Program-made: the position numbers and the translations under genes
Notes under the pieces: generated by a model
What the model saw: the letters and a program-made list of their open reading frames with translations, nothing else
Told to the model about the DNA's origin: nothing
The model's database searches: none
Source: Sulfolobus sp. E5-1-F
Lineage (GTDB): Archaea > Thermoproteota > Thermoprotei_A > Sulfolobales > Sulfolobaceae
DNA: 64,000 nt
Direction of reading: 5' to 3'
Assembly (NCBI RefSeq): GCF_009601705.1
Contig: NZ_CP045687.1
Span: 251,527 to 315,526, forward strand
Shown here: piece by piece, positions 50,669 to 62,830 of the stretch
Layout: the number at the start of each line of letters is the position of its first letter
How positions within the stretch are numbered: position 1 is the first letter of the stretch

Positions 50669-51760
50669 TTATGTCTTTCTCATCATTAGTTCTGCTAGCT
50701 TATCATTTATATCTAAATAGTTTTCTCTAGCTAAGTTAAATAATAATGCGTATTTTTTTGCATCTTGTGAATTTATTTCAGAAAGTTCGTCAGCTAGTTT
50801 ATTTAATAACGTAACTTCTCTAACACCTTGCATAGCCCATGTGTTCAGATATTTAATTGGCGTGAGGTCAAGTTCCTTTTCGGTTAACACATCTATTCTA
50901 ACTATTGGTGATGTTATATTATACTGGTAATATATAGAGTAGATTGAGAGTGAGTCTTTAAACGCCTTTTTATATTGGATATAAGCCTTTGAGATTCCCT
51001 TTAGATCATCTGGTATTGTCTGATTATTTATTAACGAATCCCAACTTATCCATCCTAGAAAAATTGGTTTATTAAGCTCAGACCTTTCGAGCCTATATTT
51101 ATATATGATATTAGATATTATGTAATTCTCCCTTGCCTTTATCAATGCCGGATAACTGTTTAAAAATTCCTTTATCAGTATTCTGTGGGAGAAGTTCTTT
51201 ACTATTCCCACGATTAGTTTATTCTTATCCTTTAATCTTCTAAGTACTGTAGAACGATATAGTGCTAACTTATCCAAAGATAAGATATTTTCTATCTCAA
51301 CATCCTCTTCATAATATGTTGGTGGATCTACAATAGGTCCATCGATAAATATCACGTCACACTCTTCACACTTCTCAATTAGACCCGTTTCTAAAGTAAG
51401 CATAAATAAGATGGATTTGTTGGATATTACATTCTTGTCGTAGTAATTCTCTATTATCTTGAAATCTTCAGCTATATCAGAGGGAACATTCTTTTTATCC
51501 TTCTTTTTACCTAAGATTTTCACAGCTCTAGCCAAGATGAGGGTTACATCACTTAACTCTATTTCATATTTACTTCCGTCTACCGCGCACGCTATGTGAT
51601 CGGAATCTATAATCTCGTCAAGTAGTCCTATTTTTAGTTCTGTGTTATTTGAAGTAATATCGTCAAAAATTAGGTTAGTTGCCGTGTTTATTTTCTCTTT
51701 TTCATCAATATCCTTAATAGCTAGTTCATTTATCTTTTTGATTACCTCATCGATATTCAA
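50669..51760 (-). CDS. NurA-like nuclease
   Basis: The 363-residue protein has the NurA layout. The first catalytic segment is IACAVDGSKYE with Asp61, the second is VIFIDGPIVDPPTYY with another Asp near residue 139, and then VGIVKNFSHRIL and a C-terminal IRIDV segment follow. NurA is a 5'-3' nuclease that works with the HerA translocase in end resection. The last gene of the operon, it overlaps the coiled-coil gene by four bases. It is not the housekeeping NurA, because no mre11 or rad50 gene is near. The level of similarity is low and needs a profile search. Confidence 0.72.
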   Translation of the reverse strand: MNIDEVIKKINELAIKDIDEKEKINTATNLIFDDITSNNTELKIGLLDEIIDSDHIACAVDGSKYEIELSDVTLILARAVKILGKKKDKKNVPSDIAEDFKIIENYYDKNVISNKSILFMLTLETGLIEKCEECDVIFIDGPIVDPPTYYEEDVEIENILSLDKLALYRSTVLRRLKDKNKLIVGIVKNFSHRILIKEFLNSYPALIKARENYIISNIIYKYRLERSELNKPIFLGWISWDSLINNQTIPDDLKGISKAYIQYKKAFKDSLSIYSIYYQYNITSPIVRIDVLTEKELDLTPIKYLNTWAMQGVREVTLLNKLADELSEINSQDAKKYALLFNLARENYLDINDKLAELMMRKT

Positions 51761-52446
51761 ACTTTCACCTTTATCGAAATATTTCTCTCTACAAGCATTT
51801 CCATAACCTTAATAGCTTCTTGTAAGTTATCTTTACTAATCTTGATTTCGCCTTTTTCCATAAGTGCTATCAGAATATTAATCTCGTTCTGGTTTAGATT
51901 TACTTTTCTCAACTCGTTTACTATAATCCCATATACTTCATTGAGGTGTCGTTTAGCTTGTATTTCAACTTCATTCAACTTAAATAGTGATTTCTCATTA
52001 GGGATGGTAAAAGTTTTCACATCTTTTGGAATTTTAAGAAAATGATACAAGATTTTCGCATATAATTTTAGTCTATCATTTATTTCCTCGATGTTCTTAA
52101 TCTTATCTTCTATTATTTTATTTATATCTTGTTCTACGTCCTTTTCTAAGCTGTTAATTTTTCCTTTTATCTTCTCTACGTATCTGATGATCTCTTCAGC
52201 GGAATCGAATTTAATTAGTCTTTCTATATCTGCTTTAATTTCCTCAAGCTTATCTTCATACTTATTTAATTCGCTTATTTTCTTCTCTAAGCTCCTTAAT
52301 TTCTTTAGAGACTCCTTAAGGCTTTGTTTAGATATTTCTAATTCTTCTATTGTCTCAGTAATTTTTCTATCTTCCTCTCTAAGTTTTTCTACGTCTAAGT
52401 GCTGTTTATATTGGGTTAGTTTTTCTATAAACTCAGCTAAATCCAT
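51757..52446 (-). CDS. Coiled-coil protein of the HerA/NurA-like operon
   Basis: The 229-residue protein is a long coiled coil over residues 5-130 (for example EEDRKITETIEELEISKQSL), then a helical part with FLKIPKDVKTFTIPNEKSLF, ending in a short winged-helix-like region (NQNEINILIALMEKGEIKIS). It has no catalytic motif. It overlaps the large ATPase gene by 14 bp and the NurA-like gene by four bases, so it is likely a structural subunit that links them. Confidence 0.65.
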   Translation of the reverse strand: MDLAEFIEKLTQYKQHLDVEKLREEDRKITETIEELEISKQSLKESLKKLRSLEKKISELNKYEDKLEEIKADIERLIKFDSAEEIIRYVEKIKGKINSLEKDVEQDINKIIEDKIKNIEEINDRLKLYAKILYHFLKIPKDVKTFTIPNEKSLFKLNEVEIQAKRHLNEVYGIIVNELRKVNLNQNEINILIALMEKGEIKISKDNLQEAIKVMEMLVERNISIKVKV

Positions 52447-55400
52447 ATTCTTCTAGAACCTCCTTTATCTCTTGAATTAGTTGTGTTATCTTTTGCTTGT
52501 TTCTCTCCACGTTCTCCTTTAACTTAGGTAATTCCGGACTTATCTTTTCTAACTCCCTTACAATCATCTCAATATTATTTAATTGAATACCGACTTTACT
52601 TAACGATACAATTTCCTCTATTATTGTTCCTTTTAACTCATCTCCGACTATCGATATTCCATTTAATATATCTTTCAGCAATTTGAATAATATGAAATAA
52701 AGGTTTGAGTTATCTTCAACATGAATTGTGGTAAGTAAGTAATCGAGGTATCTTTTGAAAGGTTCCGTTTCTCCCTTTTCATTTATCTCTTGAATTCTCC
52801 TCGCTAGCTTATCCATGTGTATTTTGAAGTTTTCTTTGAGTTCTCTAATTATATCGTGTACTCTCTCTATTTCCTCTATTTTCTCGTTTATCTTAATATA
52901 TCTCTTAGCTTTTTCTACAACTTCTAATTTCTTGTAGATTTCCTCCACGATCATGTCTGTTTCAATAACTGATCTTTCAGTCTCTCTTAATAATTCCAGA
53001 TAAATATTCGATAAATAGAGGTAATCATAGCATAACCTTATATCTCTATTTTCAGTGCAAGATTTCTCATATGTTTCAATGACCTCTTTCATTTCTTCAA
53101 GACTTCTTACCGCAGCTCCCCTCTTTTTAGCTGTTATGAAGTATCCGTAAGCTGTATATGGATTATCTAGTTTTTCCTTTATTTTTCTTATCTGCTCACT
53201 TATTTTCATATAAATTGAGTCTTTATTTAAATATTTACTAACTTCACCACTAACTATTGACGAGTAGACTAGGAAGTCTAAGGTAGGGTTTTGCCCAATT
53301 TTTTTATCAGGGTTAAAAATTTGGTAAGCGAAGATCAAAGGATTATTTTTATAATCCTTTCTTTTGATATCTTGTGGATTTACATAGTACATTATATAAT
53401 TAAATACGACATCCTCTGCTTCTTGTTTGAATTTTTGCTTAATAAGTCCCGCAAATAGCTTAGAAAACGACGATAATGAGTCTCCAGCCAGGTCTTCGAA
53501 ATCTATGTAATTAGCTCTTATCTTTATTATATAATTGTTATGGAAGTAAGTAACTACGTCTTCAATGAATGTGTTTGATGTTTCTATATCCTCTAAATGA
53601 AATTGTTTACTTCCATACATTCTAAATTTCTCGTTAATGATTTCATTTACCTTGTCGAATACTTCATTAGCGTTAGCCATCTTTATTGAAGGGTAGAAGA
53701 TTATCCAATTAAAAGATTGTATTAGTCTCTTATTTTTAGGTATTGGAAGTTGTTTCAAATTAAGATTATCCCTTATTTTTAATAGTAGAGAGGATATCGA
53801 ATTTTTCAAATCCCCTAGTCTTAGTTCTATAGAATCCAGTCTAATTCTACTTTGTCCATAAATTTTAGAGAATAATAGATATAATAGCTGTCTTTTCTTC
53901 GGTGTAGTGATTTTTAGTTCGATCAAAGGTATTGATAGAGCGTCTAAAGTTTTCGACAATTCTTCCTTTCCTATTTGAGGCTCTATTAGAATAACACCGT
54001 GAATTATCTCATCGCTTTCTCTAATCTCTTTTATTAGACTCTTAATCTCATCCTCGGTAACAGGATTTGTTAAAATAATTGTAATTTTTTCATTTTTATC
54101 TATAATTTTTAAAAACCTTATATAGTCTTTGGTTCTATTCACACTATCTATTTTTATTCCTAAAATCTCCAAAAGATATTCTAGGGATTCGAGTTCCTTC
54201 TCTCTATCTGTAATATATGTGTTCACAAACTGTAGAGCCTTATCTCGTATTTCTCTAGATTTGAACTCTACTACTAATCCTCCTATGTTCGTATTCGCTA
54301 TGCTCTCAAAGAAGTTCCAAGATAATGCGTAGGCTTCAGTTTTACTGAATATTGTTAGTTTTTTGATATCCTCCTTTATTTTACTTATATCTATACTTTC
54401 ATATACTATATTTTCTATATTATCTGATATAAATATGTAAAAGTCGTCTTGATAATACGTTAAAAGGAAATCTTCTACGTATTCTTGTCCTTTGGGGAAT
54501 ACCTCAATCCATTTTAAGTATGGTATTAGAGCTCCTTTAACAATATGACCTTCTAATTGTTTTATGATTAATTTTTCGTCAGTGAATATTCTACTCATTA
54601 GCACCCTATATAACTTGCTTAATTCTTGAGAGTCCATTTCGTTTTCAATTCTTGCCAACGTATCTAGCTTAATTGTTTCTCCTTCTGAATTTAGACTGAT
54701 CCCTTTATCTGACCTTGCTAGTTCATTGAAAATTCTTTCTACATTAGGAAGATTATCGCAAAGTATATCGTTGAAGAACCTTACATATTTTCTTCTCTCC
54801 TGGTCTATTACCCAGTATGGTAAATCCATGTATTGGAGTATTTTGAAGTCCTTTACGTTACCCATATTTAGCATACATTTTAGCATCAGTAGAAACTCTA
54901 ATTTAGACGGATTTTCTATACTAACTTTCCTTATTCTTTCAAGGAGTGAAGGGTAGGTCTCTGAAAATAGGTTATAAATCAATCCGCCAGTTCCAAATAT
55001 TTTAGAATATGCGCTTGGAGTCATGGAAAGATATACTATTGAATTTCCGGTTGAGTTGGCTAATTCCTTTACCTTATTCCAAAAATCCTTTATCTCGCTT
55101 TGATATTCTGCAAAATAATCTACAGAGCTCTCGACCTCATCAATGAGATACACGTTGTTTCTAAACGTTAATAGATCTTCAGTTTTACTTAAAAGTTCTA
55201 CAAAAGGTACTTTTATTACATTAATATTTCTGCTTTTAGCGTATTCCTCAATAATGTCGAGAAACGTGCTTTTTCCTTGGCCCCAATCGGCCACAAGGGA
55301 TATTATTTCTGGGGATTGTTTAGTCGTAGATATTCTGTCTATCTCGTCCTTAACTTGCTTGAAAAATCTCAGTCTATTAATATAAAATGGATTTTCACTA

Positions 55401-55471
55401 ATACAAGAGAAAATTTGATATATGTAAGACGAGTCGGAGGCAGTCTCGCTTATTCTCTTATAACAACTCAC
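52433..55471 (-). CDS. Large P-loop ATPase (1012 aa) of the HerA/NurA-like operon
   Basis: The N-terminal 230 residues are an AAA+/KAP-like ATPase: Walker A variant ADWGQGKST (residues 61-69), Walker B VYLIDEVESS (residues 107-116) and a sensor-like SIVYLSMTPSAY. The rest, over 700 residues, is helical with a second alpha/beta part (about residues 440-520), and coiled coils toward the C-terminus (from about 830). It recalls large ATPases of phage-defence islands such as BrxC in layout only. It starts four bases after the end of the HerA-like gene. I do not know any described protein with this full domain order. Confidence 0.7.
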   Translation of the reverse strand: MSCYKRISETASDSSYIYQIFSCISENPFYINRLRFFKQVKDEIDRISTTKQSPEIISLVADWGQGKSTFLDIIEEYAKSRNINVIKVPFVELLSKTEDLLTFRNNVYLIDEVESSVDYFAEYQSEIKDFWNKVKELANSTGNSIVYLSMTPSAYSKIFGTGGLIYNLFSETYPSLLERIRKVSIENPSKLEFLLMLKCMLNMGNVKDFKILQYMDLPYWVIDQERRKYVRFFNDILCDNLPNVERIFNELARSDKGISLNSEGETIKLDTLARIENEMDSQELSKLYRVLMSRIFTDEKLIIKQLEGHIVKGALIPYLKWIEVFPKGQEYVEDFLLTYYQDDFYIFISDNIENIVYESIDISKIKEDIKKLTIFSKTEAYALSWNFFESIANTNIGGLVVEFKSREIRDKALQFVNTYITDREKELESLEYLLEILGIKIDSVNRTKDYIRFLKIIDKNEKITIILTNPVTEDEIKSLIKEIRESDEIIHGVILIEPQIGKEELSKTLDALSIPLIELKITTPKKRQLLYLLFSKIYGQSRIRLDSIELRLGDLKNSISSLLLKIRDNLNLKQLPIPKNKRLIQSFNWIIFYPSIKMANANEVFDKVNEIINEKFRMYGSKQFHLEDIETSNTFIEDVVTYFHNNYIIKIRANYIDFEDLAGDSLSSFSKLFAGLIKQKFKQEAEDVVFNYIMYYVNPQDIKRKDYKNNPLIFAYQIFNPDKKIGQNPTLDFLVYSSIVSGEVSKYLNKDSIYMKISEQIRKIKEKLDNPYTAYGYFITAKKRGAAVRSLEEMKEVIETYEKSCTENRDIRLCYDYLYLSNIYLELLRETERSVIETDMIVEEIYKKLEVVEKAKRYIKINEKIEEIERVHDIIRELKENFKIHMDKLARRIQEINEKGETEPFKRYLDYLLTTIHVEDNSNLYFILFKLLKDILNGISIVGDELKGTIIEEIVSLSKVGIQLNNIEMIVRELEKISPELPKLKENVERNKQKITQLIQEIKEVLEEYGFS

Positions 55472-55475
55472 ATTT

Positions 55476-57086
55476 TCACCCTTCGCTTAAAATTAAATCA
55501 ATTCTTTCCACGTTTCCAGTGTATGACCCCAACCTAGCATCCCATGGTATTCTTACCAATGCTGGACTTTTCATTATTGACATAAGCCCACTTACTATTA
55601 CGTGCCCAGTCTCTAATGACGTTAAATTTCTAGTTAACGATTCTGGTAAACCACCTGAAGCAGACATCACATACTTTACGTCCTCGTGATATATTCTATG
55701 AAAGAAGAAGGTGTTAATCATAGATAATACGTATTTATCTATAAATGCTGGTCTTTGACTTACCAGAATTAAAGAAGCTCCAAATTTCCTTCCTTGAGTT
55801 GCCAATGTTACCAATACGTCTTTTGTTAAATTGGCGTTTACTGGATAATCAACAGAAGGTATGTAGTTTTGTGCCTCTTCTATTACAAATCCCAAAAATC
55901 TTTGATTGCCGTTATATTTGGATTTTGTAAGATAATTGAAGATCAATCTAGTTATGTAACTCACGATGAGTTGTTTTGTAAGGATATCTATACCGGGTGA
56001 ACCCTCAGCTGAGAAGTCTATGATTGCCAAACCTCTATTTCTCCAAATTACTTCTAGTGTACTTTCAGTTAAAGAGGCAGAAGAGCTAACCAGTTGTAGC
56101 TTGCTAATCACCTTGTTTTTGAATATTTCTAATGCACTCGCGATTCCTCTAGCTGTGCTCGTTGTTATTCCGATATCTTTATTTTGAGCCATAGTAAGAA
56201 TCTCATTTTTTAGGTTCTCGATTCCTATCGTAGTTCCTAAAAGTGTATTATATTCCCTATTCTCGTGATTTGCTAGAACTTGCTCTAGGAAATTTAGCTG
56301 TAAGGTATTATATGAAGCCTCTCCATATTTTAGAGACATAATGAATTCAGATAATTCTCTAGGCGTGAACATGGACAAATCTATTGTAAGCTTAATGTCA
56401 TTTTGTTCCTTAGGATCCTTTAGTATATATCTCTTTATCCAACCCCTTCCCTTAGATACTACGTCAAGATTTGTTGAAGCTAAATCTATGTAGTCTCCGT
56501 TTGCGTCAACTACAATCATTGGTAAGGCTGTAATTTTATCTCCTATTTTTATGTTAGATAGGAGCTTGATTAAATATCTCATATTGTAACTCTTTCCACT
56601 CCCTGTTTCCCCAAAAACTCCTACATGCATGGTTATCGCATTAAGGTCTAGCAATAAAGGTATTTCAGAACCTGCCAAAGCCCCATACTCAACTAATCCT
56701 TTTTTGCTTTTTATACCATAAAACGAAAGTAGGTCTTTCTCATTCTTTATTTCTGGTAATCTTCTTACAAAAGAGCCCGGTTTAGGAGTAGTGTTATGAT
56801 CATATTTTTTTATTAAGTGCAAAGTAGCCTTTATTATTGTGTTCATGTCTAAAATCTGATATATTGATGGTTCTTTTAGTATTGACTTAGCTATATCTCC
56901 CTTTTCGTCAAAGAATTCATTTAGAAATTCATAGTTCTCAACTCTGACTAATGAAAGTTTATCGGAATCATCAATTAATAACAACTGTCCTATGTTTATT
57001 TCCTCGTCAGCCCTAATTAGACCTTGCAACTCATTTGCTTCGCTTTTCTGCAGTACTATTCCTATTATCTCTCCCTTTTCCATCAC
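55476..57086 (-). CDS. HerA-like DNA translocase ATPase
   Basis: The 536-residue protein has a short N-terminal HAS-barrel-like domain (EIIGIVLQKSEANELQGLI), the Walker A GETGSGKS at residues 159-166, an IVVDANGDYIDL segment after it, the Walker B FVIEEAQNYIP, and TLATQGRKFGASLILVSQRP, all typical of the HerA/FtsK branch. HerA proteins form hexamers that pump DNA and feed the NurA nuclease. Housekeeping HerA is encoded with Mre11 and Rad50; this is a paralogue in another setting. It lies 47 bases after the ArcS-like gene. Confidence 0.85.
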   Translation of the reverse strand: MMEKGEIIGIVLQKSEANELQGLIRADEEINIGQLLLIDDSDKLSLVRVENYEFLNEFFDEKGDIAKSILKEPSIYQILDMNTIIKATLHLIKKYDHNTTPKPGSFVRRLPEIKNEKDLLSFYGIKSKKGLVEYGALAGSEIPLLLDLNAITMHVGVFGETGSGKSYNMRYLIKLLSNIKIGDKITALPMIVVDANGDYIDLASTNLDVVSKGRGWIKRYILKDPKEQNDIKLTIDLSMFTPRELSEFIMSLKYGEASYNTLQLNFLEQVLANHENREYNTLLGTTIGIENLKNEILTMAQNKDIGITTSTARGIASALEIFKNKVISKLQLVSSSASLTESTLEVIWRNRGLAIIDFSAEGSPGIDILTKQLIVSYITRLIFNYLTKSKYNGNQRFLGFVIEEAQNYIPSVDYPVNANLTKDVLVTLATQGRKFGASLILVSQRPAFIDKYVLSMINTFFFHRIYHEDVKYVMSASGGLPESLTRNLTSLETGHVIVSGLMSIMKSPALVRIPWDARLGSYTGNVERIDLILSEG

Positions 57087-57133: not shown

Positions 57134-57700
57134 TTATGACGAAATGCTCGCTATTACATTAGAAATGGTCTTGAAAGCTAACCTACCGTATGGGTAAATT
57201 GTTATTTTTAAATTTGAGATTTCAGCTGATCTTTTCACTATTTCGTAGTGATGCTTAGGTAGTATACCTATTAACCTCTTGTGCAACTTACTTATTTTTA
57301 AGAGGGGTTTAGTTAGTAATATTATAAATTCTTCTTTCTCCTCTTTACTCATAAGTCTTGGTGGATAATCGTAATTATTGAACGGATAACATTCCTCTAA
57401 TTCTTTAGGCACTAATAACATTGGTTCCGATACTGAATAGACTTGCACTTTTTCCTCTAAATTATATTTGTTTAATGTAGCATAGGCTATTTTGTGGGTA
57501 GGGGAGCGTGAATAAGGCTTAACTACTGTACAAGGTAATAGCAATCCAATTTCCTTATTTGAACTCCAATTTTCAAGGAAATAACTATGCCATCTCATTA
57601 CTACTGGGTGTTTGAATAAATCATCTATATTATCTTTTTTAGATATTCTAGTAAAATCAGGCTTAAGATATTCATATAGTTGCTCGCATGCAGAGCTCAT
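57134..57700 (-). CDS. ArcS-like (archaeosine synthase core, DUF5591) protein
   Basis: The 188-residue protein carries the full lysine-transfer motif of archaeosine synthase, PC-X3-KPY-X2-S-X2-H, as Pro56 Cys57, Lys61-Pro62-Tyr63, Ser66 and His69. The later EPMLLVPKELEECYPFNNYDYPPR is typical of the domain. Full-length ArcS has a TGT-like part before this domain, and here that part is a separate gene overlapping by 29 bp. ArcS attaches lysine to preQ0 in tRNA as a step to archaeosine. Crenarchaea of this group are thought to use other enzymes for archaeosine, so its presence inside a HerA/NurA-like operon is remarkable. Confidence 0.75.
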   Translation of the reverse strand: MSSACEQLYEYLKPDFTRISKKDNIDDLFKHPVVMRWHSYFLENWSSNKEIGLLLPCTVVKPYSRSPTHKIAYATLNKYNLEEKVQVYSVSEPMLLVPKELEECYPFNNYDYPPRLMSKEEKEEFIILLTKPLLKISKLHKRLIGILPKHHYEIVKRSAEISNLKITIYPYGRLAFKTISNVIASISS

Positions 57701-58556
57701 TTACCTCTTCCTCTATCTCATCTTCTGAAAAGTTATCTAGCTTTTTAGAATATTCTATTAATGGATTGTTAATTTCATATTCTGAATTTAAGAGTACCCA
57801 TGCATTAATTAAACTTCTGTCTATCCAATTATCAAGTCTAATTGGAAATGGATATTTTGTCCTATCTAAGAATGATAATAGAGTCTCTAATTCTTCTTCA
57901 CTCGCTCTCTTAGTCCCCCAAACTATTTTTCTTTCACCAACGTATCTTTCTCCTTTACCGGGTATAATTACCATGCCATGTATTCCCTTTATTCTGTAGG
58001 TTGAGGTATCTACACTATCAGCGTTAAAGTAGACTTTTCTCATGAACGGTGATCCAGCTCCCAATACGTGGATTTTTCCTTTCCATAATTTTCTCACTAG
58101 ATGATATATTCCTACTGCAATTTTTTTGTTACCATTTTTATTAAGGGTAGGAGGTATTATTCCACCAAATGCCACCAGATCAGTGTATTGGGAGTAGAAG
58201 TCTATAGCTATCTTTATTGATTCTACGTCATAAGCGTGTATAACTGGTACTATCTTCTTATCAAAAACCGAATATAGATATTCAAAGTATTTATAATTTA
58301 ATTCTGAAGGTTTATGGCAAGGGTTTGACGGTATATCGAGGCTCATGTATTGTGTAGCATTTAGGATTTTATATTTCTCAACAACTTTTTCTATATTAAC
58401 CTTTATTCCTTTTACCATTATTTGATATCCTCCAGAGTCCACCCATGTCTCATTTTCCCAAGACAGACTATTCCAATTTAATTGGTTTACCATTAATGGT
58501 TGTTTAAACGTCCAAACTGGGATTTTCATGTCAGGTATACCTAGTATTATCTTCAT
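57672..58556 (-). CDS. tRNA-guanine transglycosylase-like protein without zinc motif
   Basis: The 294-residue TIM-barrel protein has the TGT substrate motif WVDSGGYQ with Asp40, the SLDIPSNP loop, FGGIIPPT, HVLGAGSP and an Asp183 in ADSVDTSTY at the place of the nucleophile of archaeal TGT enzymes. The zinc-binding C-x-C-x-x-C-x(n)-H stretch of normal TGTs is absent; the only Cys residues are at 80 and 290. Such paralogues include the TGT-like part of ArcS and the DNA-modifying DpdA proteins. It is the first gene of the six-gene minus-strand operon and overlaps the ArcS-like gene. Confidence 0.75.
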   Translation of the reverse strand: MKIILGIPDMKIPVWTFKQPLMVNQLNWNSLSWENETWVDSGGYQIMVKGIKVNIEKVVEKYKILNATQYMSLDIPSNPCHKPSELNYKYFEYLYSVFDKKIVPVIHAYDVESIKIAIDFYSQYTDLVAFGGIIPPTLNKNGNKKIAVGIYHLVRKLWKGKIHVLGAGSPFMRKVYFNADSVDTSTYRIKGIHGMVIIPGKGERYVGERKIVWGTKRASEEELETLLSFLDRTKYPFPIRLDNWIDRSLINAWVLLNSEYEINNPLIEYSKKLDNFSEDEIEEEVNELCMRATI

Positions 58557-58800: not shown

Positions 58801-59481
58801 GTGCTTAAGAGTGCAAAAATCCTTATATATATTACAATATTACTATTTATAGCAAATATTATTGGTAATGCGTATATAGTTAATGTAAAAATCTTAAGTC
58901 CTTTTCCGGTCACATTACTGATTTCTGATTCCCATGGTGTTAAATTAGTTTCTTCCAACCAAACTCTAAACGTTAACAGTTCAAATTTAACGATTCTAGC
59001 GTATGTTTTAGCCCCTTATTCGTATTCCATATATATTAACGGAAATAGGACTAGTGAATTCAACGTTAATTTGCCCAACTACTCTGAATTCAACCTCACA
59101 GTATTCGTTATTCCTAGTTACGCTTTTTTAAGAGTTACTGTAGTCGGAAAAGGCACAGTTTATATTGAATTAGATAATGGTAGTATTATTTCAGTTAGGA
59201 ACTCCTCTGTGGTCAAACTATATAATGGGTCTAACGTTCTTCTTGAGGCTAGCGGAGATCTTCTAAATTGGTCAAATGGGGCTCATACCATGACGCTTTG
59301 GTACGCAGTTAATGGTAACTCAACAATTACAGCTTTTTTTAGTAATTCTAGTATTCTTCTAAGGGCTGGTACTATTAAACCTATAATAAACTACACAGAA
59401 ATAGGACTTAGTTTATTTGCGATAGGATTTTTTGTATTATATAAAATATATTCTAGAAAGGACCAAGATACTAATGTTTGA
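58801..59481 (+). CDS. Membrane-anchored surface protein of unknown function
   Basis: The 226-residue protein starts with an uncleaved-looking hydrophobic helix (ILIYITILLFIANIIGNAYIV), carries a beta-rich outer domain with more than ten N-x-S/T sites, and ends with a second helix (IGLSLFAIGFFVLYKIY) and a charged tail. It resembles the protein at 29568 in layout but not in sequence. It starts with GTG. Its end overlaps the long frame of the next gene by four bases, although that gene probably starts later. I do not recognise the family. Confidence 0.6.
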   Translation: MLKSAKILIYITILLFIANIIGNAYIVNVKILSPFPVTLLISDSHGVKLVSSNQTLNVNSSNLTILAYVLAPYSYSIYINGNRTSEFNVNLPNYSEFNLTVFVIPSYAFLRVTVVGKGTVYIELDNGSIISVRNSSVVKLYNGSNVLLEASGDLLNWSNGAHTMTLWYAVNGNSTITAFFSNSSILLRAGTIKPIINYTEIGLSLFAIGFFVLYKIYSRKDQDTNV

Positions 59482-59522
59482 TAACAACTTTTAAATGTGA
59501 ACTCGTTACTAAAAATATTAGA

Positions 59523-61457
59523 ATGAATGAGAGATTAAGGAATTCTCAAAGTGGCTATTTGAGGAAAGCAATAAATCATCCAATAAATTGGTATACTTGG
59601 TCTAATGAAATATTTGAAATTGCGAAAAAGGAAGATAAGCCGATACTTATTGATGTAGGTGCTGCTTGGTGTCATTGGTGTAATGTTATGGATGAAGATA
59701 CCTATTCAAACCCAGAAATAGTTAAGATAGTTAACGAGAATTTCATTCCAGTTAAAGTTGATCGAGATGAAATGCCTGATCTGGATAGACTATTACAAAA
59801 CACAGCCATGGCAATAACAGGTGAGTCTGGGTGGCCTTTAACTATATTCATGACACCAGAGGGAAAGGTTTTCTTTGGCGGAACTTACTTTCCTCCGGAG
59901 GATAGGTACGGAAGAATAGGCTTTAAGACATTATTGATAGAGATTTTGAGAATATGGAGAGAAGATAGAAATCAAATATTATCATCTTCAATAGACCCTA
60001 ATACACTAATTCCTAGAAATAGTGGCGGAGTTCTAAGTTCAAGTATTTTAGATGACGCGTTTTCTTATATAACATCCTACTTTGATATTGAATATGGTGG
60101 ATTAGGGTTTGGAGCTAAATTTCCACATCCTTTTGTGGACTTACTATTCCTCAACTATAGTGCTACCAGGGGAGATGATTTAGGTAAGAAACTTGGTCTA
60201 TTTACCTTAAGGAAAATGTATTATGGTGGGATTTTTGATCAAGTTGGTGGGGGATTTCATAGATATACTGTTGACAGAGAATGGAAATTACCTCATTTTG
60301 AGAAACTACTTATAGATAATGCTGAATTGATTTATGATTATTTTACTTATTATACTGCAACTAGTGACATAGAAATTCTAGATGCCTTACGAAATTCAGT
60401 TGATTTTGTTTTAAGAGAACTGTACATAGATGGGAAAGGTTTTGCTAATAGCTTGGATGCAGATAGTGAAGGCATAGAGGGCAAATATTATACGTGGACT
60501 GAGGATGAGCTTAAAGATGCGTTAGGAAGTGATTACAGTATCGCGATTAGAATATTCGACCTTAAAAATACTGTAGAAGTTGAGGGCAGAAAAGTTCTAT
60601 TGAGAACAACTGAACTTAGGGACCTATCTAGGGTAACTGGTTTTCAAGTAAACGAAACAATAAAGAAGATAAATGAGATAAGGGCTAAATTATTGACATA
60701 TAGAGAGCAAAATAGAAAAATGCCATATAGAGATGATAATACATACACTTATCCTAACGCAAGACTAGCAGAATCCATGCTGTATTCCTCATTAATTTTA
60801 AACGAGGGTATTAAGGAGGCTAAGCTTGTTCTGAGTAAGTTAGGAAAAACTGTTAGTAGAAGATTAGATGGCGGAAGAGCTGGATTACCAGAAGACTATG
60901 CCGCAGTACTTTTAGCAATTATTTCCGCATATGAGGTATTAGGTGAAGAAAAGTATTATGATTTAGCAATTGAACTTGGTAGAAATATTGAGAGCATTAA
61001 GCCTAACAATTTTACCGATATGCCTAATGAGTCTGCAAATTCAATGTACATTAAGGCATTATTCAAGTTATCTCTATTATCTGACGAGTTTAAAGTTGAT
61101 GAAGGAAAAATTAAACCTCTAATTCCCTCTACAACAGCTGAAAATTCTCAATTTATTGCCGGTATAATTAATACTATCTCAAGCTATATTAATAATAGTA
61201 TGGCTCATGTAGTAATTGTTGATGAGAAGGATGGACTAGCGGAAAGATTACATAAAGTTGCTTTACTTACATATTATCCCTTTAAATTAGTTGAAAGGAT
61301 AGATGATAGCAGAACTGATTACGTTAGTTCAGTAATAAGAGCGATGATTAAATATAATGCGGGAAAGAGTAGGGCATATGTGTGCATAGGCAATACGTGC
61401 AGTATGCCGGTAAGTGAAGATGAAAAGGTTAAACAATTACTTAAAACCAAGCTTTAA
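59523..61457 (+). CDS. DUF255 thioredoxin-like / glycosidase-fold protein (YyaL type)
   Basis: The protein (644 residues from this ATG) has an N-terminal thioredoxin-like domain with WYTWSNEIFEIAKKEDKPILID, the CHWC active site (AAWCHWCNVMDEDTY) and SGWPLTIFMTPEGKVFFGGTYFPP. It continues into a six-hairpin (alpha/alpha)6 barrel with FDQVGGGFHRYTVDREWKLPHFEKLL and SLDADSEGIEGKYYTW. This is the YyaL/SPATA20 family, found in all domains, with uncertain function in redox or sugar chemistry. An upstream TTG at 59478 is possible, but the TATA-like ACTTTTAAAT near 59486 favours this ATG. Confidence 0.88.
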   Translation: MNERLRNSQSGYLRKAINHPINWYTWSNEIFEIAKKEDKPILIDVGAAWCHWCNVMDEDTYSNPEIVKIVNENFIPVKVDRDEMPDLDRLLQNTAMAITGESGWPLTIFMTPEGKVFFGGTYFPPEDRYGRIGFKTLLIEILRIWREDRNQILSSSIDPNTLIPRNSGGVLSSSILDDAFSYITSYFDIEYGGLGFGAKFPHPFVDLLFLNYSATRGDDLGKKLGLFTLRKMYYGGIFDQVGGGFHRYTVDREWKLPHFEKLLIDNAELIYDYFTYYTATSDIEILDALRNSVDFVLRELYIDGKGFANSLDADSEGIEGKYYTWTEDELKDALGSDYSIAIRIFDLKNTVEVEGRKVLLRTTELRDLSRVTGFQVNETIKKINEIRAKLLTYREQNRKMPYRDDNTYTYPNARLAESMLYSSLILNEGIKEAKLVLSKLGKTVSRRLDGGRAGLPEDYAAVLLAIISAYEVLGEEKYYDLAIELGRNIESIKPNNFTDMPNESANSMYIKALFKLSLLSDEFKVDEGKIKPLIPSTTAENSQFIAGIINTISSYINNSMAHVVIVDEKDGLAERLHKVALLTYYPFKLVERIDDSRTDYVSSVIRAMIKYNAGKSRAYVCIGNTCSMPVSEDEKVKQLLKTKL

Positions 61458-61468
61458 CATTTTTATTT

Positions 61469-62188
61469 ATGGGAAGGTTAGATAATAAGAAAGTAGCTAT
61501 TATAGGTGTAAGTGAAGGTTTAGGTTATGCAACGGCTTATTTTGCATTAAAAGAGGGTGCACAAGTTTGTATAAATGCGAGAAATGAAAATAAGCTAAAG
61601 AGAATGAAAGAGACTCTAAGTAAGTATGGTAATATCCAGTACGTAATTGGTGACGTCTCTAGTGCTGACGGTGCTAGGAATGTAATAGATAAGTGCGCGT
61701 CTCTCCTTAACGGAATAGACCATCTAGTGGTTACTGTTGGAGGATATGTTGAGGACACAATAGATAATTTTAGTGGATTAGAAGAGATGTTAACTAATCA
61801 CATAAAAATTCCCCTTTATGTAATCAATTCATCTCTAAGGTTTCTTAGAGAAGGCTCTAGTGTAGTTTTAGTATCATCAATGAGTGGCATTGCTAAAGCC
61901 TCACCCGACCAATTATCCTATGCAGTAGCTAAAGCTGGCTTGGCTAAGGAGGTTGAGGTCCTAGCCTCAGAATTGTTAGGGAGGGGGATTAGGGTTAACG
62001 GTATTGCTCCAACTACTATAAGTGGAGAATTCCAACCTGAAAGAAATTGGAAGAAACTTAGAAAATTAGGTGATGATATGGCTCCTCCAGAGGATTTCGC
62101 AAGGATTATTATTTGGCTTTTAACTGACGAATCGGAATGGGTAGATGGAGTGGTAATACCAGTTCATGGTGGAGCAAGGTTAAAATAG
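61469..62188 (+). CDS. Short-chain dehydrogenase/reductase
   Basis: The 239-residue protein has the SDR cofactor loop GVSEGLGYATA in place of the usual TGxxxGIG, the VGGYVED variant of NNAG, the Ser in VSSMSG, and the YxxxK pair (SYAVAKAG). INARNENK after strand 2 suggests NADP. The C-terminal GVVIPVHGGARLK is the usual end. The gene starts 11 bases after the DUF255 gene and ends one base before the TenA gene, so it lies in the same operon. The substrate is not evident. Confidence 0.88.
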   Translation: MGRLDNKKVAIIGVSEGLGYATAYFALKEGAQVCINARNENKLKRMKETLSKYGNIQYVIGDVSSADGARNVIDKCASLLNGIDHLVVTVGGYVEDTIDNFSGLEEMLTNHIKIPLYVINSSLRFLREGSSVVLVSSMSGIAKASPDQLSYAVAKAGLAKEVEVLASELLGRGIRVNGIAPTTISGEFQPERNWKKLRKLGDDMAPPEDFARIIIWLLTDESEWVDGVVIPVHGGARLK

Positions 62189-62830
62189 GTGTCTATAGTG
62201 AGTAATATTGAAAATCTTATTGAAAGTGTAGGAGAGTTATGGAACAAGTATGTTAAACATGAATTCGTACTTAAAATGAGAGACGGGTCTCTTCCAGTAG
62301 ATATTTTTAGATATTACCTTATACAAGATGGGAAATATGTAGAGGATATGCTAAGGGCATTGCTGATTGCCTCTAGCAAAGGTCCAATTGATAAAGTTAC
62401 CAAGATACTTAATTTGGTTTTTTCTACTCGGGATAAGGGCTTAGAAATTCATAGTAGACTTTATTCTAAACTGAGTATTTCTAGAGATGAGATATTAAAA
62501 ACTAGATACAATCTAATAAATTATGCGTATACGAGACATTTATACTACTATGCTAGTCTAGATTGGAATGAATTTTTGGTTGCATTGGCTCCATGTATGG
62601 TTGGATATAGTTTAATTGGCGATTATGTAGTTGAGTCTACTCACGAACTTTATAAAACATGGGCCTCATTTTATGCTTCAGATGAGTATAAGAAGAGAGT
62701 TGAGGCTATTCTTGATGCCTTAAACGAGATAAATATTACTGAAGGTCTTCTAGGTATATTTGTAGATTCTGTAAGGTTCGAGATAAGTTTCTGGGAGGCC
62801 TCTTTAAGGAAGGACCCTACGGTGTACTAG
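62189..62830 (+). CDS. TenA-family protein (thiaminase II-like)
   Basis: The 213-residue helical protein follows the TenA fold: ELWNKYVKHEFVLKMRDGSLPVDIFRYYLIQDGKYVEDM at the start, YTRHLYYYAS, then LVALAPCMVGYSLIGDYV with the conserved Cys of the P-C-x-x-G-Y motif. C-terminal ASDEYKKRVEAILD is the TenA ending. Members cleave degraded thiamin to salvage the pyrimidine. The SDR gene upstream touches it directly, so both enzymes are made together. Confidence 0.85.
   Translation: MSIVSNIENLIESVGELWNKYVKHEFVLKMRDGSLPVDIFRYYLIQDGKYVEDMLRALLIASSKGPIDKVTKILNLVFSTRDKGLEIHSRLYSKLSISRDEILKTRYNLINYAYTRHLYYYASLDWNEFLVALAPCMVGYSLIGDYVVESTHELYKTWASFYASDEYKKRVEAILDALNEINITEGLLGIFVDSVRFEISFWEASLRKDPTVY

Follow-up and report, generated by a model that had tools for sequence, protein, structure and literature searches.

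We identify a pair of overlapping genes within a 64,000-nucleotide stretch of the Sulfolobus sp. E5-1-F genome (the window; NCBI RefSeq assembly GCF_009601705.1, contig NZ_CP045687.1, positions 251,527 to 315,526 of the forward strand) that encode a tRNA-guanine transglycosylase (TGT)-like protein and a DUF5591 protein. With about even confidence, we propose that this pair forms the writer half of a DNA-marking system encoded on the chromosome, that a neighbouring HerA-NurA operon with a large ATPase is its reader half, directed against unmarked DNA, and that viruses have copied the writer. Our support for this proposal consists of the protein fold, the conserved active-site residues, the pairing of the two genes, their co-distribution with the operon, and synteny. 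Conservation of the pair across 18 Sulfolobaceae genomes, and in three viruses (STSV1, STSV2 and STSV4), is far beyond chance. An earlier interpretation made without database searches (the sequence-only reading) had described the pair as a split archaeosine synthase (ArcS), and had missed its links to the neighbouring HerA-NurA operon and to viruses. The two genes are:

57134 to 57700, minus strand: free-standing ArcS-core (DUF5591) protein, 188 residues, with motif PCTVVKPYSRSPTH; overlaps the upstream gene by 29 nt.
57672 to 58556, minus strand: predicted DpdA-type TGT-fold base-exchange enzyme, 294 residues; D40, D183 and H107 conserved; without a zinc site and without a PUA domain.

The 294-residue product is predicted to be an intact TGT barrel that is zinc-less and carries two catalytic aspartates. 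In a fold search, its AlphaFold2 model (pLDDT 90.5, pTM 0.90) matched the barrel of P. horikoshii arcTGT (1j2b; Z 21.8, root-mean-square deviation 3.3, 257 residues), and the matches listed were all tRNA transglycosylases. All 21 aligned relatives share the catalytic candidates D40 and D183. The CxC/CxxC zinc cluster, present in the genome's own TgtA, is absent from this protein, as it is from the phage 9g-type DpdAs examined. These results bear out the description, in the sequence-only reading, of a separate overlapping TGT-like gene with two catalytic Asp candidates and no zinc site. The structure alignment (A2) omits loci L115, L127, L130 and L132.

Profile searches against the TgtA, ArcS and DpdA families, suggested in that same reading, separate this protein from normal TgtA enzymes. 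A Pfam scan matched it to no family, the ArcS models gave nothing at E<=1, and the TgtA model TIGR00432 gave a weak 19.2 bits (cut-off 350 bits); given the missing Pfam TGT match and this low score, we rejected an ordinary TgtA as its identity. Its best family match, judged from sequence profiles, is the phage DpdA family: phrog_887, from a library that has no curated cut-off, scored the archaeal protein at 150.4 bits, phage 9g DpdA at 331.5 and a cyanophage DpdA at 217, with no match to the genome's own TgtA. One alignment column holds Gln in 16 of 16 TgtA rows (15 of the 19 fetched loci, L139-L157, and the genome's own TgtA) and His in all 42 non-TgtA rows (the archaeal family, viruses, phage DpdAs, nt-1 DpdA2 and a Haloferax plasmid protein). 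Searched with a profile of 14 cellular copies, the cyanophage DpdA scored 46 bits, the Haloferax protein 36, the genome's own TgtA 16 and 9g DpdA 14.5. A tree of 55 rows, which omits STSV4, G146, TgtA_L141 and a 964-residue Haloferax protein, places the archaeal TGT-like family in a clade of its own (95/95), apart from the TgtA and phage DpdA clades.

The 188-residue protein is a free-standing ArcS core and not a full-length ArcS. It matches Pfam DUF5591 at 66.8 bits (cut-off 26) and the ArcS model NF040592 at 68.1 bits (cut-off 440, set for full length), at model positions 267-408 only. The motif PC-X3-KPY-X2-S-X2-H, named in the sequence-only reading and which we take to be linked to ArcS, is complete here as stated there (PCTVVKPYSRSPTH) and intact in 28 of 28 relatives listed. 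Elsewhere in the order, natural fusions of an ArcS core with RaSEA occur as single proteins of 483-496 residues (L012, 1387-2874; L020, 616-2064), with a radical-SAM RaSEA-like domain at 77-82 bits and DUF5591 at 68-74 bits; frames of similar size are present in L019, L027 and L033.

The host genome is complete (2.54 Mb), and its only DUF5591 gene is the one described here. It also encodes a regular TgtA (552 bits) and a 464-residue Gat-QueC (QueC 210 bits, with a glutamine amidotransferase domain), in agreement with the expectation that archaeosine is made through GAT-QueC, and it gave no TIGR01210 match for a RaSEA partner at E<=0.01. The tRNA route thus looks complete on its own, and the pair appears dispensable for tRNA archaeosine. 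With TgtA and Gat-QueC already encoded, we found neither of the two situations that the sequence-only reading had named as counting against it, a first protein that groups with normal TgtA enzymes or a genome lacking any other tgtA or gat-queC gene. A strict split ArcS, in which the two proteins would jointly make up a tRNA G15 archaeosine synthase that duplicates the role of Gat-QueC, would fit the complete-motif DUF5591 core and its 68-bit ArcS-model match, but we consider it highly improbable and have rejected it for tRNA: the TGT-like protein keeps both Asp and matches no ArcS model, RaSEA was not found in the genome, Gat-QueC is present, and the TGT-like gene is missing from 13 of 31 Sulfolobaceae genomes. 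What survives of the split-ArcS description is a free-standing ArcS core beside a zinc-less TGT-like gene; the TGT-like protein, which retains its catalytic residues and matches phrog_887, is not an ArcS half.

Directly downstream of the pair lies a four-gene operon:

55476 to 57086, minus strand: HerA-type DNA translocase ATPase, 536 residues; Pfam DUF87 128.1 bits; Walker A GETGSGKS.
52433 to 55471, minus strand: large P-loop ATPase, 1012 residues; Walker A DWGQGKS; LIDE Walker B-like motif; no Pfam family above cut-off.
51757 to 52446, minus strand: coiled-coil protein, 229 residues; weak helix-turn-helix matches under Pfam cut-offs.
50669 to 51760, minus strand: NurA-family nuclease, 363 residues; Pfam NurA 63.4 bits (cut-off 21).

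For the large ATPase, a profile search (A3) returned no solved relative (best E 0.32), and a model of its N-terminus, built from two sequences, was too poor for use (pLDDT 41.7).

The distribution of this operon follows that of the pair. The TGT-like gene is found in 18 of 31 Sulfolobaceae genomes, and the 1012-residue ATPase is present in exactly those 18 and missing from the other 13. Near the TGT-like gene, a DUF5591 gene occurs in 18 of 18 genomes, overlapping it in 11 (by 17 to 44 nt), divergent in four and at most 2.4 kb apart in three. In every one of the 18, HerA, the ATPase and NurA likewise sit together as a block; the coiled-coil protein was recognised in 16, with a 268-residue open reading frame (ORF) in its place in the remaining two. 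All six genes are consecutive in nine of the 18 (one of these with an intervening 143-residue ORF). On an rpoB tree of 29 of the 31 genomes, in which G125 is represented by a partial sequence, the joint presence of the TGT-like gene and ATPase requires four changes, three of them forced by well-supported branches, so the pair and the HerA block were gained or lost together more than once. Fisher tests of co-occurrence, which ignore relatedness, were not relied on. As for rpoB itself, G125 carries it in two overlapping pieces (G125:C1:29635-31430; L215, L216), and 28 of the 31 family genomes have one match over cut-off.

On its other side, the pair adjoins a divergent backbone block (window 58801-62830) of a 226-residue protein, a DUF255/DsbH protein, a short-chain dehydrogenase/reductase and a 213-residue protein. 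Found in synteny with the pair in several genera, this block marks a common chromosomal site. We rejected a plasmid origin, which this synteny contradicts; the 188-residue protein had no plasmid match, and the 294-residue protein had only two, both distant and partial.

The TGT-like gene was found in 52 of the 147 genomes sampled across the order, and 50 of these also match DUF5591 at E<=0.01. DUF5591 matches in 84 of the 147 are an upper figure, since weak matches in frames of 500-550 residues may be TgtA; 69 lie over the cut-off. The 1012-residue ATPase was detected in 14 of the 147, all Sulfolobaceae, and Sulfolobus acidocaldarius, the named control, had no DUF5591 match. Outside the family, a Desulfurococcales metagenome-assembled genome (L112), whose TGT-like protein is 38% identical, encodes on one strand a series of TGT, DUF5591 (47 bits), NurA (25.5), HerA (83.8) and AAA ATPase (31.8 bits). 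This ATPase scored just 7.9 bits against the Sulfolobaceae ATPase profile, so that the evidence for its kinship comes from the P-loop and from IDEFE/IDEVE and TPSAY motifs, judged by eye. In a Njordarchaeota metagenome-assembled genome (L113), a HerA-like gene lies about 2 kb upstream of the pair, and at locus L101 a HerA-like neighbour is in divergent orientation.

STSV1 (ORF18/19), STSV2 and STSV4 carry the overlapping pair as well, at 60-67% identity. In each of these viruses thyX lies nearby, and STSV1 and STSV2 also have a DNA methyltransferase gene in the vicinity. Among 18 IMG/VR loci, a DUF5591 gene adjoins the TGT-like gene in STSV1 and STSV2 only. A tblastn search of the four operon proteins against three STSV1 stretches gave no significant match for HerA, the ATPase or NurA (best E 0.23). 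Rudiviruses have the first (TGT-like) gene alone, in 30 of the 42 records with a capsid match; the other 12 capsid-bearing records lack it, and no clean correlation between rudivirus host and gene emerged. In SIRV2 (L065, 1793-3933) and SIRV10 (L066, 1808-3903), the gene immediately before the TGT-like gene is annotated as an amino-acid permease. The viral genes themselves are not new, as Hutinet et al. 2019 count 12 Ligamenvirales and two Bicaudaviridae among viruses with 7-deazaguanine genes (available text of PMC6884629).

Both gene trees group the STSV copies with cellular Sulfolobaceae, with modest support for their exact place, and pairwise distances for one protein track those for the other (r = 0.95, 30 pairs of proteins), an agreement that shared descent alone could give. 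The viral identity levels could also suit a scenario in which the genes were domesticated from viruses and then retained by chance or turned against viruses via another route; we judge this very unlikely, as the chromosomal copies are syntenic with backbone genes across several genera and the trees put STSV within or beside cellular sequences. Synteny and tree position together point to host-to-virus transfer.

The viral copies also bear on whether the pair might instead use preQ0 to modify RNA, perhaps a tRNA or rRNA at some position besides G15. We regard an RNA target as rather improbable. TGT-fold enzymes and ArcS do act on tRNA, every listed fold match is a tRNA transglycosylase, and ArcS works on the preQ0 nucleoside itself (PMC11298593, available text), but the TGT-like protein lacks a zinc site and is too short to hold a PUA domain, its closest assigned family is phage DpdA, DNA viruses carry the pair close to thyX (and to a DNA methyltransferase gene in STSV1 and STSV2), and DNA-processing genes are linked to it.

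Several observations nevertheless weigh against the proposed writer and reader halves. The HerA operon is unlinked to the pair in nine of the 18 genomes, and in the Ignisphaera-like family f3 both writer genes are present but unlinked, and the 1012-residue ATPase is absent. HerA and NurA have everyday roles in repair as well, and unrelated genes may share the 18/13 pattern at some background rate. The TGT-like gene is missing from the two records of SSRV1, a rudivirus of Saccharolobus solfataricus. The 150-bit score to phrog_887 would be partly circular if that family includes rudiviral members, and the bacterial DpdA model NF041059 (cut-off 200) gave no match to the 294-residue protein at E<=1, although it gives even phage 9g DpdA just 13.9 bits. 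The tree that sets the archaeal clade apart from TgtA and phage DpdA is unrooted, so either of them may be its nearer relative. The unlinked operons and the f3 genomes would also be expected if the pair marked DNA with 7-deazaguanine purely to protect or stabilise it, with HerA-NurA a separate repair set sharing its distribution by chance. We consider this unlikely in view of the exact co-distribution (18/18 versus 0/13, with three to four tree changes) and the distant L112 cluster with NurA, HerA and AAA ATPase. That the pair and the nuclease-helicase set come and go together suggests a system of self/non-self defence.

In the mechanism that we infer for the writer and reader, which takes in DNA as the substrate, the product chemistry, the reader specificity and the role in defence, the DpdA-type enzyme would exchange guanine in DNA for preQ0 from the host's own pathway. 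The ArcS core would then attack the nitrile of the inserted base and so finish it. The ArcS of T. kodakarensis attaches lysine to preQ0, with the preQ0 nucleoside as its minimum substrate (available text of PMC11298593), so tRNA is in principle not required. The finished base could be a lysine adduct, an amide or an archaeosine-like formamidine. With RaSEA absent, the reaction may end at the lysine adduct, or water or a different amine may serve the core in place of lysine. The HerA translocase, the 1012-residue ATPase, the coiled-coil protein and NurA would capture and degrade DNA lacking the mark, and the STSV writer pair, or the first enzyme alone in rudiviruses, would let viral DNA pass as self.

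Our confidence falls somewhat short of even for the broader claim that many Sulfolobaceae mark chromosomal DNA with a 7-deazaguanine, possibly, in view of the missing RaSEA, a base so far undescribed in DNA such as preQ0-lysine, that the HerA-NurA-ATPase set polices unmarked DNA, and that STSV and rudiviruses took the writer. If true, this would be an archaeal chromosomal 7-deazaguanine modification-restriction system with parts unlike those of bacterial Dpd, and it would explain why Sulfolobales viruses have transglycosylase genes annotated as tRNA enzymes. In 2005, Xiang and colleagues reportedly described an unusual modification of STSV1 DNA; the policing reading would explain this modification and supply a concrete candidate for it. 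It would also give the HerA-NurA set a testable role beyond ordinary repair.

In the one open-licence literature library searched, we found no published description of the Sulfolobaceae system, and a PADLOC scan, which presumably includes dpd models, gave no dpd match for five of the six proteins (all but NurA). The closest parallel to the first enzyme is phage DpdA of the Enterobacteria phage 9g type (phrog_887), likewise a TGT-family protein of about 300 residues with both Asp, His in place of the TgtA Gln and no zinc cluster; the archaeal protein differs in being paired with an ArcS core, in being chromosomal, in having no adjacent preQ0 genes and in forming its own clade. Vibrio phage nt-1, whose DNA carries dPreQ0, dADG and dG+ (PMC6884629, available text), also combines a TGT-like protein with a free-standing DUF5591 protein, located beside DpdA2 and preQ0 genes. 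There, however, DpdA2 belongs to another subfamily, the DUF5591 motif is altered and the phage has preQ0 genes of its own.

On a Haloferax alexandrinus plasmid, pBNX82-4 (L070, 1858-11325), two TGT-annotated genes (964 and 344 residues), a DUF262 gene, a BREX-type ATPase gene and a QueD-like gene make up a Dpd-like cluster.

Bacterial Dpd joins a TGT-type writer of 7-deazaguanine in DNA to a restriction set (PMC12839542, available text), an arrangement resembling that proposed here; the archaeal set has an ArcS core instead of DpdC, and HerA-NurA as its proposed effector. BREX-Related Capture (BRC) includes a HerA/FtsK translocase and an AAA+ ATPase, with TGT in a subset, and features PglZ, DUF6079, STAND NTPase and DUF4007 (PMC12839542, available text); the archaeal set has NurA and an ArcS core instead. 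NurA does not appear in the main text of that paper, and its BRC passage names no ArcS core. Conversely, none of PglZ, DUF6079, STAND NTPase and DUF4007 turned up in the Pfam scans of the operon proteins, although no genome search was aimed at them. The operon is like the HerA-NurA end-resection complex in its HerA central domain (128.1 bits) and NurA domain (63.4 bits by Pfam), and differs from it in adding the 1012-residue ATPase and coiled-coil protein and in its sporadic occurrence in Sulfolobaceae.
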